Of a stretch of 64,000 nt of DNA, positions 4,491-62,640 are shown one piece after another; position 1 is the stretch's first letter, and the number at the start of each line of letters is the position of its first letter. Under the pieces are notes generated by a model. That model saw only the letters and a list, made by a program, of their open reading frames with translations. It made no database searches and was not told the origin of the DNA. The position numbers and the translations under genes are program-made. The stretch comes from an uncultured Pelagibacteraceae bacterium. Its GTDB lineage: Bacteria > Pseudomonadota > Alphaproteobacteria > Pelagibacterales > Pelagibacteraceae. The stretch spans positions 1 through 64,000 of the forward strand of contig CACIDF010000002.1 of the NCBI GenBank assembly GCA_902585365.1, written 5' to 3'.

Positions 4491-5932
4491 TTTTGTTTGA
4501 TAGTAATTGTTTGATTAATTTTAATTTTATCTATAAAATCTTTTTTACCATTTGTCCATTTAACTTCTATTTTAAAATCTTTTTCATTTTTTCTAATTCC
4601 AAAATGTGCCACAGGTTCCATTTGGCATAAATAACCAGATCCAGCATCTATTGTTTTTGAATGCTTTCTTTGATTAGATATTAAAGTTACAGTTGCTCCC
4701 CTAGCAGGAGCTCCAAATTTATTGACGGGCTTAATCCTTAAATATTTATTATTTTTTTCTACTTTTGCTTTATACAATGTCAAAGGTTGTGCTTTACTTT
4801 CGCCGTGAGAGACTAATAATTCTAAAATACCATCATTATCAATGTCAGCTACAGCTGCTCCAGTGCCAAATCCTTGAGTCTCAAGCGCCGTTTTTAATTT
4901 TATTTCCTCAAATTTTCCATTTTCATTTATTTTAAATAATTTGTTTGGTTCTGCGATATTGTTCATGAAAACTTCATCAAAACCGTCGTTGTCAAAATCA
5001 GCGGAGATAATTGTTCTTATTCTAGATGGTCTATCGAAAGCTTTGTTTCCTATGTCCTTAAATTCGTTATTTTCTAAAACGTATGCTCTATGATATCCAT
5101 TCCAATTACCACTCAAAATGTCTAATCTTCCTCTATAATAGATATCAGATAATGCAGTTCCCCTTCCATTCTGTATTACATCATCAACTCTGTAATCAAA
5201 AGCAACATCCTCAAATTTACCTTCATTATTTTTTAAAAGAAAGTTAGCGCCTCTTTCATTTGCTGCAAATATGTCAGCTCTATCTGTTAATATGTGTCCT
5301 GATACTACTGCTCTTCCACCAGTAACTTTATCCAAATTTAAGGTTTTTGCTTTATCTGTTATTGTGTTATTTTCAATTTCATAGAATCTAGTTGGTCCTC
5401 CATAATTGGCTACATAAATACCGTATTCACCATCACCCTTTCTATCAACACAAACTACAGATCTACCTGCTGTTAAGTTTAAATTTTCTATATTTTTTTT
5501 TAACTCAAATAAGTCAAAATAATTATTGTTACTTTTATCGATTAGTCTATCAGAGTATTTTTTTGTTCCACTATAGGTATCTGTATTTAAAAAATAAATT
5601 TCCTCAAAACCATCTTTATCTATATCACAAGCTGCAACACCAATAGTTTTTCTATCTCGATCCAAAAAAACGTCCTCTTGGATTATGTTTTTTAATTTTC
5701 CATCAATGTAACCTAAAGCTAAGTTTGGATAACCAAAACCTGTGACTATAAACTCATTATTTCCATCTTCATTAATATCCGTAACCGAAACCCCATAACT
5801 AAGCCTGCTTTCATTAATCGTTATAATATTTGAAATATCTTTAAAAAATTCTGCACGAGAACTGTTAATTGGTAGTATTAAAGAAAAAATAATTAAAAAT
5901 TTATATAAATAATTTACCTTTTTGATGAACAT
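4487..5932 (-). CDS. FG-GAP/VCBS-repeat secreted protein with C-terminal ASPIC/UnbV-like domain
   Basis: Repeated acidic loops [45 protein letters not shown]-terminal [11 protein letters not shown]...[16 protein letters not shown]. Confidence 0.85.
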
Positions 5933-6042
5933 CTTTTAGAGCAATATTTAACTTTTTCCCAGTTCAGCTTCCATTTTTTTCTCCATTTAAAAGGCCTTTC
6001 ACAAACTGGGCACAACTTAGTTGGTAGGTTTTGTTTTTTCAT
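5914..6042 (-). CDS. DUF2256-like zinc-ribbon mini-protein (42 aa), not in the supplied ORF track
   Basis: Manual translation [42 protein letters not shown]; overlaps both flanking genes. Confidence 0.8.
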
Positions 6043-6388: not shown

Positions 6389-7871
6389 TAGTATTTTCCT
6401 TTATAAATTTATCTGCTGCGGCTAGTATAACTTTTTTTCTTTGGGCATTCATTTTGTCATATATTCTAACCATCATTGATAATCTTGGATTTTTTAAAAA
6501 AAAGGATCTATTCTTATTTATAAATCTCCAGTAAAGACCATCCATAATGTTGCACCATTCACCTTTTTTAAAATCCATCATTTTAAGAAAATAACTTGAT
6601 CCACAAATGTAAGGTTTGGTGGCAAAAATTCCTCCATCACTAAATAATCCCATTCCATAAACGTTTGGAGACATTACCCAATCAGATGAATCAACGAACA
6701 TTTCCATAAACCATTTGTAAACATATATCGGTTTAATTTCACAGAGATTCATAATGTTTGATAAAATCATTAATCTCTCTATGTGATGTGACCAACCATG
6801 ATCATTGGCATTTTTTATCGCATAGTCTAAAGGTGGAAGTCCTGTGTTCCCTTGGTACCAAGTAGGTTTCATTTTACGATTATGTTTAAAAAAATTACCA
6901 GTTTCTAATCTGTTACAAAAATTTTGATAAATTCCTCTCATAAATTCTCGCCAGCCAATTACTTGTCTTATATAACCCTCTAAAGAATTTATTCTAATCT
7001 TTTTCCTTTTATGACTATCTAAAATTTTCTCTATAATTATTTCTGGAGTTATTAAACCCAAATTTATGTAGGGACTAAGAGCACTATGGAACAATATATT
7101 ATTATTTTGATCAACAGCGTCCTCATAATCTCCAAATAAATTAGATTTTTCTTTTATAAAAAAATCTAGTAATTTTAGAACTTCTTTATATTCAGTCGCA
7201 AACCAAAAATTTTCTGTTGAACCAGGGTGTGTTGCAAATTTTTTTTCTATAATGCTTTTCAGTTTTTTTGTGTGAACTGTTTGATTGATTTTAGGAAATG
7301 AGGGAACTTTAGTTCCTTTTGGCAGTTTCTTTCTATTATCTTCATCAAAACTCCATTTACCACCAACAGGATCTTCGCCATTCATTAAGATGTTCATTTT
7401 TCTTCTCGTTTCTTTATAAAAAACTGCCATGAATGGTTTTTTTGATTTATATAAATATTTTTTAAAATCATCTCTAGTATTAAGAAACATCGGAGATGTA
7501 ATTATATTGAGCTTTACTTTATTTTTCTTTGAAAAATCTATCATTTTTTTTTCAAATGGTTTGTCTTCAATTTCAAAACACGAAATTTCATTGATTTTAT
7601 TTTTTTTTAAAATTTTTTTTATTTTTAAAAGATAATCATCTTTAAATGCTGAATCCTCAATTTTAGAATAAGTAATTTTAAAGCTATTTTTTTTTAAATT
7701 TTCATAAAATGATCTCATTGATGAAAGAAATAAAAGGATTTTAAGTTTGTGATGTTTTTCATAGGTGCATAAACCGTTATCTTCTGCCATAAAAAAAAGA
7801 TGGTCTTTTTTGAAGCGGTTTAGGTATTTTAATGGAAATAATTGATTTCCAAGTATAATAAATAATTTCAT
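6378..7871 (-). CDS. Cryptochrome/photolyase-related protein, (6-4)/FeS-BCP-like family
   Basis: LFIILGNQLFP N-terminus; GWREFMRGIYQ, HHIERLMILSNIMNL, WFMEMFVDSSDWVMSPNVYGMGLFSDGGIFATKPYI. Confidence 0.9.
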   Translation of the reverse strand: MKLFIILGNQLFPLKYLNRFKKDHLFFMAEDNGLCTYEKHHKLKILLFLSSMRSFYENLKKNSFKITYSKIEDSAFKDDYLLKIKKILKKNKINEISCFEIEDKPFEKKMIDFSKKNKVKLNIITSPMFLNTRDDFKKYLYKSKKPFMAVFYKETRRKMNILMNGEDPVGGKWSFDEDNRKKLPKGTKVPSFPKINQTVHTKKLKSIIEKKFATHPGSTENFWFATEYKEVLKLLDFFIKEKSNLFGDYEDAVDQNNNILFHSALSPYINLGLITPEIIIEKILDSHKRKKIRINSLEGYIRQVIGWREFMRGIYQNFCNRLETGNFFKHNRKMKPTWYQGNTGLPPLDYAIKNANDHGWSHHIERLMILSNIMNLCEIKPIYVYKWFMEMFVDSSDWVMSPNVYGMGLFSDGGIFATKPYICGSSYFLKMMDFKKGEWCNIMDGLYWRFINKNRSFFLKNPRLSMMVRIYDKMNAQRKKVILAAADKFIKENTNAS

Positions 7872-7899
7872 AATTTATTTATAAATACTATTATACGAT

Positions 7900-11474: not shown

Positions 11475-12556
11475 TTTTTTTCGACGTAGATAGATTGACT
11501 TGGAAAAGCAAAAGATGCTTTGTTTTTTTCAACTATCTGCTTTATTTCAATGGCTAATTTTTCTTTGACTTTCAGCCATTCATTCCAACTATTAGTTTTG
11601 GTGAAGCATCTTACATACATATCTATCGAGCTATCTGAAAATTTATCTACTCTAACTGCGATCCCTACTTTTTTATCGTAGTCATCATTTTCCGTAATAT
11701 GTTTTTCGATTTGGTCTCTTATATTTTTTAACTGATCAACCGTTGTGTCATATTGCAAAGTAATAATCCAACTTATGAGCCAATTAGTTGTTTGGCTTAC
11801 ATTAATAACAGCATTTTCTGCAAACTGAAAATTAGGAATTATAGCTAATGATTTATCAAACTTTCTAATAGTTGTTGATCTAAATCCTATTTTTTCGACA
11901 ATTCCTTCGATTGTGCCCTCTACTAATATCCAATCACCCATTTTAAATCTTTTTTCTACAAGAACTAAAATTCCAGATATCAAATTTTTAAATAAATCTT
12001 GGGCTCCAAGTGCAACAGCTACTCCAAATAGACCTAACCCAGCAATAATTGGTCCAATTTTTATTCCCCATAACTCTAAAACAGCGGCAGCACCTAAAAT
12101 AAATATTAGAATTTTTAAAGACTTAATTATCCATCCTATCAATTCTCTTGTAAGAATTTTATCTAATCCGCTTAAAATGTATGAAATTGGTTCAATTATT
12201 TGATGAATAATCCAAAATAATAAAATTGTAATTAAGGTTCTGTTTATTGTGTCTACAAAAGATCTGGTGTCCTCAGCAAACGTCATATAATAACTTGCAA
12301 AGAAAAAACCTAAAACTATAGGTAAAAAACGTGCCGGTCCTACCATAGCTTTTACAAAAGTGTCATCTAACTTGTTGGTTGTTCTTTTTGAAATAAGCTC
12401 CAGTTTTTTTATAATTAGTTTGCTAATTAAACCTCTAAAAATTAGAAATATTAAAAAAATTCCTAACCCGATTAATATCTGACCTATATCAATTCCTAAA
12501 ATTCCTTTATCCCAAACAGAAAGAAATAAATTTTTTAAATTAATAAAAACTTCCAT
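11471..12556 (-). CDS. Mechanosensitive ion channel (MscS) family protein
   Basis: GLGLFGVAVALGAQDLFKNLISGILVLVEKRFKMGDWI...GTIEGIVEKIGFRSTTIR. Confidence 0.93.
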   Translation of the reverse strand: MEVFINLKNLFLSVWDKGILGIDIGQILIGLGIFLIFLIFRGLISKLIIKKLELISKRTTNKLDDTFVKAMVGPARFLPIVLGFFFASYYMTFAEDTRSFVDTINRTLITILLFWIIHQIIEPISYILSGLDKILTRELIGWIIKSLKILIFILGAAAVLELWGIKIGPIIAGLGLFGVAVALGAQDLFKNLISGILVLVEKRFKMGDWILVEGTIEGIVEKIGFRSTTIRKFDKSLAIIPNFQFAENAVINVSQTTNWLISWIITLQYDTTVDQLKNIRDQIEKHITENDDYDKKVGIAVRVDKFSDSSIDMYVRCFTKTNSWNEWLKVKEKLAIEIKQIVEKNKASFAFPSQSIYVEKK

Positions 12557-60898: not shown

Positions 60899-61540
60899 AT
60901 GGAAAACGTAGTAAAAAATTTTAATGTAATAAAGCAAGAAATTATAGATAAAAAGAATGTTAAATTAGTTGCTGTTAGTAAAACTTTCTCAATTAGCCAT
61001 ATATTGCCCATAATTAACGAAGGTCACACTGATTTTGGTGAAAACAAAGTACAAGAAGCAATGGAGAAATGGACAAGTATTAAGCAAGACTTTCCAAAGA
61101 TCAATTTACATTTAATAGGTAAATTGCAAACAAATAAAGTTAAGTTTGTTTTACCTTTATTTGATTATATACATTCCTTAGATAATCTTAAGTTAGCAAG
61201 TAAGATAGCAGACGAGCAAATAAAAAAAAATTTTAAGCCCAAAATTTTTATACAAATTAATATTGGTGAAGAATCTCAAAAAAGTGGGATTGAAATAAGT
61301 AATTTAGAAAATTTTTATAAAAGATGCATTGAGGAATTTAAATTAAATATAATTGGGCTAATGTGTATTCCACCATTTGATAAAGATTCTAAAAGTTATT
61401 TTATAAAAATGAGAGAATTATCTGAAAATTTAAATTTAAAAGATATAAGTATGGGCATGTCAGATGATTATATGGAGGCTATAGAACAAGGATCAACATT
61501 TATAAGAGTAGGCTCAAAAATATTCGGTGCAAGAGTTTAA
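60899..61540 (+). CDS. YggS-family PLP homeostasis protein
   Basis: LVAVSKTFS; DFGENKVQEAMEKW; HLIGKLQTNKVK; SMGMSDDYMEAIEQGSTFIRVGSKIFG. Confidence 0.96.
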   Translation: MENVVKNFNVIKQEIIDKKNVKLVAVSKTFSISHILPIINEGHTDFGENKVQEAMEKWTSIKQDFPKINLHLIGKLQTNKVKFVLPLFDYIHSLDNLKLASKIADEQIKKNFKPKIFIQINIGEESQKSGIEISNLENFYKRCIEEFKLNIIGLMCIPPFDKDSKSYFIKMRELSENLNLKDISMGMSDDYMEAIEQGSTFIRVGSKIFGARV

Positions 61541-62028
61541 TAAATTTTAATTTTTGAATTTTTATTAATTATTTTTAATAGTATTAATAAATCGTTTTTT
61601 TTTAGAGCTATACAACCTTCAGTAGGACTATAATTTTTTGTTAAATGAATAAAAATTGCACTTCCTTTGAATGGTTTTGTTTTTTTTGTATTATACTCTA
61701 TAACAATTAAAATATCATAAGTGCTATCTCTTCTATAAAATTTTTCACCTTTATTTTTTTTATCTAAAACAATTTCTTTATTATATTTCTTATTGTATGG
61801 ATCATCGCACCAACCCATATTTTTGGTAATCTTTTTAGTTTTTAATACTGTTTCTGGTTTATTAACTCTATCTGATCGGTAATAAACCTTACCAACTTTA
61901 AAAATTCCAATCGGGGTGCAACTATCTCCCTCAGTTTTTTTTGATTTTAAACCTTTTTTACCAATAGAGCATTTGAACTTAAATTCATCAACAATTAAGT
62001 ATTCTTTATTTTTTAATTTTAATAACAT
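61537..62028 (-). CDS. L,D-transpeptidase (YkuD-like) family protein
   Basis: KKTEGDSCTPIGIFKVGKVYYRSDR; IFIHLTKNYSPTEGCIAL. Confidence 0.88.
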   Translation of the reverse strand: MLLKLKNKEYLIVDEFKFKCSIGKKGLKSKKTEGDSCTPIGIFKVGKVYYRSDRVNKPETVLKTKKITKNMGWCDDPYNKKYNKEIVLDKKNKGEKFYRRDSTYDILIVIEYNTKKTKPFKGSAIFIHLTKNYSPTEGCIALKKNDLLILLKIINKNSKIKIY

Positions 62029-62039
62029 ATTATAATCTA

Positions 62040-62640
62040 ATGCATTCGCAAAAGTTGCATATTTTAAATATACCAGAATTAGATAAAATTATTATAGAAA
62101 TCAGAGATTATCTTAATTACGAGATTAATAACTTCACTGAAAAAAAGGAATTGATAAAAAAAATCGATGAAGACAGCAAATTTTTAGAAAATTCAATAAT
62201 TATTGTTAATCAGAAAGACTTTTTTTCATTAAAAAACAAAACTAATGAAAAACAAATTTATTGTATTACAAAATTTCCAATAAAAATCTCTAATTTATTC
62301 GATCAATTAAATGCAAGATTAATACAACAAAATTACTCAGTTCAATCAAATATTAATATAAACAAATATATATTAGATATTAATTCTAGAATGTTAAAAA
62401 AAATCAGATAAAGAATTAAAATTAACTGAACGAGAAATTGATACTATTTTATTTCTTAAAAATGAAAATAAACCAGTTAATGTGGATATTCTTCAAAAAA
62501 AGGTTTGGAAATATGGTCAAGATTTAGAAACCCATACAGTTGAGACACATATTTATAGATTAAGAAAAAAAATCAAAGACACATTCAACGATGTCTCTTT
62601 TATAGAAAGTAAAAAGGATGGATATATAATTAATGAGTAA
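62040..62640 (+). pseudogene. OmpR-type winged-helix response regulator split by a +1 frame change at an A8 run (62396-62403)
   Basis: Frame 0 (62040..62411) ends YILDINSRMLKKIR*; frame +1 continues KKSDKELKLTEREIDTILFLKNENKPVNVDILQKKVWKYGQDLETHTVETHIYRLRKKIKDTFNDVSFIESKKDGYIINE*. Confidence 0.8.

Follow-up and report, generated by a model that had tools for sequence, protein, structure and literature searches.

An OmpR-type regulator gene conserved in SAR11 is split in this genome by a run of eight A's, and we consider it about 90% probable that the split is a non-programmed insertion of one A into an A7 run, caused either by a technical error or by a very recent mutation. Since all close relatives carry the gene intact and breaks at A runs occur once or twice per genome, the split is best seen as an ordinary base-rate indel and not as a built-in switch. 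Between error and real mutation, we lean slightly towards a technical origin. Within the window (the whole 64,000-nucleotide stretch of DNA analysed), the split gene is laid out as follows.

62040..62411, + strand: upstream ORF of 123 aa, predicted pseudo-receiver and linker of an OmpR-type regulator, with the C-terminal end LKKIR before the stop
62395..62397, + strand: TAA stop of the downstream frame, its last two bases being the first two A's of the A8 run
62396..62403, + strand: A8 run and frame break point, A7 between identical flanks in the nearest relative
62398..62640, + strand: downstream frame, with a complete Trans_reg_C winged-helix domain but no start codon from which all of it could be made

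The A8 run sits within ttAAAAAAAAtca. Frame 0 translates from the ATG at 62040 as MHSQKLHILN...DINSRMLKKIR to the stop at 62411, and this upstream ORF gave zero matches to Pfam. The frame from 62398 reads KKSDKELKLTEREIDTIL...ESKKDGYIINE, 80 aa with the last base of the stop at 62640; it matched Trans_reg_C in Pfam (6.6e-13). The claim of the original prediction that an A8 run splits an OmpR-type regulator was thus confirmed, in its frames as well as in the position 62396-62403, and the continuous ORF it expected from seven A's was obtained when one A was removed (a single ORF of 199 aa). It had also placed a TAA immediately before the run and concluded that the full DNA-binding domain could not start on its own. 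The stop does not precede the run, as it shares the first two A's; the conclusion itself stands, since the first ATG, GTG or TTG in the downstream frame after the TAA is a GTG at 62482, already inside the domain, leaving the whole DNA-binding domain without a start of its own. Two separate genes, encoding a receiver-only protein and an independently started DNA-binding protein, would account for the two ORFs in the window, but with the first downstream start lying inside the domain and one fused protein in every close relative, the chance of this is close to nil. The A8 run is in itself ordinary: the window holds 32 A8 and 32 T8 runs at 28.6% GC, and about 355 A8 and 143 A9 runs are located within intact genes of the same genome. 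The breakage of a gene by such a run is the unusual part.

A search of 201 genomes of the genus for the regulator protein gave matches in 172, among them each of the 29 genomes with a completeness of 90% or more; some weak matches among the 172 are probably other regulators. Among the genus-wide matches listed, internal stops occurred only in the present genome's own copy. Eleven named SAR11 records were retrieved and ten close homologues (82-95% DNA identity) were compared; all ten were open throughout, with zero stops. The comparison with other SAR11 homologues that had been proposed at the outset therefore found an intact gene in 10 of 10, and neither half of the split copy was decayed. The nearest relative, AG-917-B07 (L040; 95% DNA identity), has the same flanks around seven A's (GAATGTT-A7-TCAGATAAAG). 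Among the ten homologues the run is A5, A7, A8 (L041), A9 (L037) or G-interrupted (L038, L039), and it is in frame in every one of them because the flanking bases differ too. A pattern search for the A8 allele found it in 1 of 399 genus genomes, namely the present one, and exact matching of the allele against viral contigs gave no hit. The genome has three Trans_reg_C genes in all, and a search within it for a second copy of the regulator returned only a 24-base chance match.

The frequency of such breaks was estimated by a gene-by-gene comparison of about 740 kb of the present genome with about 785 kb from each of two relatives, AG-917-B07 (G201) and AH-324-B10 (G202). In the present genome, about 427 comparable genes (0.39 Mb) were intact, and these contain 582 A and 111 T runs with a length of at least 8. 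Two genes were broken at an A run: the regulator (A8) and a 755-aa gene homologous to sarcosine oxidase/GcvT (A9; L095, G000 contig C1, ~12052-12056), the halves of which are 99.6-100% identical to the relatives. One break was found in AG-917-B07, in ubiG at an A9 run (L054, ~5911-5945), and one in AH-324-B10, in an FkbM-family methyltransferase gene at an A10 run (L193, ~7867-7877). A third apparent split in the present genome (L155, 4367-4781) was rejected as a homopolymer event: it looks like the end of a gene that has diverged (71% identity), next to an inverted repeat. Where near-invariant or respiratory-quinone genes are broken but otherwise undecayed, the breaks have the look of technical errors or of very young mutations. 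The present record comprises 43 contigs, with 73.7% completeness and 0.02% contamination, figures from which it appears to be of the same kind as its relatives (uncultured isolates or MAGs with single-cell-style names). Thus, three partial SAR11 genomes each have one or two A-run frameshifts, some of them in presumably indispensable genes such as ubiG, and a lone A-run split without reads is consequently no basis for a claim of recoding or phase variation.

Phase variation had been among the explanations offered by the original prediction; the A run would then be a contingency tract that toggles the regulator via replication slippage. A homopolymer that lies inside a regulator gene and varies in length among close relatives is what such a tract would look like. 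However, the variants (A5, A7, A8, A9 or G-interrupted) keep the frame through flanking changes, the 399 genus genomes contain no second off-allele, comparable breaks occur in unrelated metabolic genes, and A8 runs are found everywhere in the genome. We accordingly dropped this explanation as highly improbable.

In the reading that we prefer, one extra A would have arisen in the A7 run in a single genome record. It would stem from an error during the amplification, sequencing or assembly of what is a partial draft genome or, alternatively, from a mutation so young that no further decay followed. If the A8 is truly present in the cell, translation would stop after 123 aa, the DNA-binding domain would go unmade save via rare slips of the polymerase or ribosome, and the regulator would presumably be lost, in effect, in that cell line.

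Codon comparisons support continued purifying selection on both halves of the split gene. Its dN/dS was 0.16 against L035 and 0.25 against AG-917-B07, while values between more distant homologues of the regulator family were about 0.10-0.12 and the genome-wide median was 0.07-0.08, with 3-14% of genes scoring as high as the regulator. When codon changes were polarised, 9 non-synonymous and 6 synonymous changes fell on the window branch, and 1 non-synonymous and 6 synonymous changes on the two sister branches; this amino-acid excess was not significant (one-sided p ~0.06, hand calculation). With 6 synonymous changes, neutrality would predict roughly 25-30 non-synonymous changes by a site-count estimate, compared with the 9 seen. 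The window branch thus shows a hint of relaxation, far from neutral decay. A true pseudogene, with the regulator undergoing loss in the present lineage, would draw on this mild excess and on dN/dS values against the nearest relatives that 3-14% of genes reach. Such an excess could reflect a real loss of slightly greater age, but the regulator family evolves faster than most genes anyway, and the low dN/dS (far below 1), the shortfall from the neutral expectation, the absence of a second disruption or of decay in either half, and the intact gene in 10 of 10 close relatives all argue against loss. We therefore regard a true pseudogene as unlikely, and we rejected an old one on the selection analysis of both halves. 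The preference of the original prediction for a recent mutation or an assembly error over an old pseudogene is borne out by the same dN/dS values (0.16-0.25) together with the intact A7 gene in the nearest relatives.

Programmed slippage, also put forward originally, is not supported. A programmed transcriptional slippage or ribosomal frameshift site would be recognised by a conserved slippery run and a split in homologues, and neither was found: run length and sequence are not conserved, the run is in frame in relatives, the A8 allele is confined to 1 of 399 genomes, and breaks of this type form a background in these genomes. A real A8 could still be tolerated if RNA polymerase or the ribosome slipped often enough to yield full-length protein at some level, a mechanism suggested for insect endosymbionts with AT-rich genomes. 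Rescue of A-run frameshifts has been described in otherwise undegraded Blochmannia and Buchnera genes (PMC3017870), in Citrobacter tssM it has been demonstrated at an A11 run (PMC4256274), and the undecayed state of both halves of the regulator is consistent with such a process. However, restoring the frame here would require minus one A or plus two, measured transcription errors favour single-A insertions, single deletions in runs being rarer (PMC5574713), and not a single frame-restoring case came up when the transcriptomes of E. coli and Buchnera were surveyed throughout (PMC5574713). Furthermore, A8 is shorter than well-documented sites, and neither A8 (355 observed, 286 expected) nor A9 (143 observed, 126 expected) is under-represented in coding sequence, which by the criterion of PMC1088944 speaks against strong slippage; as such runs are not avoided, there is no sign that slippage at them is harmful in this lineage. 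Slippage could in principle rescue the split regulator, but such rescue is unsupported and we rate it as decidedly unlikely.

Like the poly-A frameshifts of Blochmannia and Buchnera (PMC3017870, PMC5574713), the split is a one-base A-run indel in an otherwise undecayed gene, at low GC and with a few genes affected per genome; unlike them, it is found in a free-living SAR11 record and in one genome only, rescue is unsupported and a technical error is possible. It resembles the slippage sites of Citrobacter tssM (A11, PMC4256274) and Thermus dnaX (A9, PMC1088944) in having an A run directly 5' of a premature stop and a missing domain encoded in another frame, whereas the SAR11 run is shorter and not conserved, minus one or plus two A's are needed, and the relatives are single-frame.

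The intact regulator, a core gene of SAR11, is an OmpR/PhoB-type DNA-binding protein by its winged helix, Trans_reg_C being present in 25 of 25 homologues. The Response_reg profile matched neither the split protein nor any of the 25 homologues, nor did it match at this site in the genome, and in the SAR11 alignment rows zero Asp aligned with the DxxLPDxDG motif. Assignment as a canonical response regulator was therefore rejected. An AlphaFold2 model of the AG-917-B07 homologue (pLDDT 87; pTM 0.57, domain orientation uncertain) contains a receiver-like alpha/beta domain, and Foldseek returned full-chain matches of this model to OmpR/PhoB-type regulators, the best being RitR, with CosR, PhoP and 2hqr (HP1043, an atypical orphan regulator) also matched. 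Predicted structure and Foldseek together identify an atypical pseudo-receiver, that is, a receiver fold without a phosphorylation site, and the N-terminal half is, as modelled, a shortened receiver fold lacking the phospho-acceptor across the whole SAR11 family. The missing phospho-acceptor Asp noted in the original prediction is thus a property of the whole intact family and was not caused by the frameshift. As in RitR, HP1043 and CosR (PDB 5vfa, 2hqr, 8uvk), which are atypical OmpR/PhoB-type regulators that work independently of phosphorylation, a receiver-like domain is combined with a winged helix in a full-chain fold match; in contrast to these proteins, the SAR11 domain falls short of the length of a canonical receiver and gives no Response_reg profile match. 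RitR is described, in the structure match, as belonging to a family of redox sensors derived from response regulators. The intact SAR11 gene most likely acts as a phosphorylation-independent DNA-binding regulator.

Two genes upstream of the regulator belong to a conserved neighbourhood.

61537..62028, - strand: gene of YkuD type (L,D-transpeptidase family), oriented divergently to the regulator, a neighbour conserved in SAR11 and other Alphaproteobacteria
60899..61540, + strand: YggS-family PLP-binding protein gene, member of the conserved neighbourhood

A thiamine-phosphate-synthase-like gene, YggS and YkuD are also kept together. The start codons of YkuD and the regulator are 11 bp apart (62029-62039), with equal spacing in L040 and L042; at so short a distance, either promoters or operators must be located within coding sequence, or one true start is further in. 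The adjacent divergent YkuD gene is perhaps a regulatory target.

When the SAR11 profile was run against genomes of other Alphaproteobacteria, its best match genome-wide lay within 3 kb of a YkuD homologue in 8 of 10 genomes tested; the OmpR-type regulators beside YkuD/YggS at L121, L131 and L203-L208 are of this kind. In one of the remaining two genomes the two matches sit on separate contigs; in the second the YkuD-adjacent regulator also matches, though the genome search listed a different one. At L121, L131, L204 and L206-L208, unlike in SAR11, the receiver is still canonical and carries the DxxLPDxDG phospho-Asp motif. Among the seven regulators of genomes that are neither SAR11-like nor strongly reduced (L203-L209, a set that includes L209, which has no readable ORF), five have the canonical receiver and motif. 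The L203 regulator is intermediate, and in L202 and L210, both from reduced genomes, the receiver is degenerate, suggesting a stepwise or repeated loss of phosphorylation control. With the shared YkuD neighbourhood, the best profile match and canonical receivers elsewhere, the SAR11 gene is probably orthologous, in degenerate form, to a canonical response regulator that Alphaproteobacteria retain next to YkuD.

The YkuD/YggS-adjacent regulator of L121 and L204-L208 presumably resembles CenR. A CenR homologue has been reported absent from Pelagibacterales (PMC9275681). Taken as one account, a degenerate, phosphorylation-independent core regulator beside an L,D-transpeptidase, possibly descended from CenR and off or low here via the poly-A frameshift, is very unlikely. 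A SAR11-wide regulator that has lost its phosphorylation site and kept its L,D-transpeptidase neighbourhood is a more useful by-product of this analysis than the frameshift, and it offers a specific candidate for envelope control without a kinase in a bacterium that is free-living and very streamlined. AH-324-B10 matches the window there in two separate pieces, with about 1 kb of extra DNA immediately downstream of the regulator region (G202 contig C1, 150829-151853).
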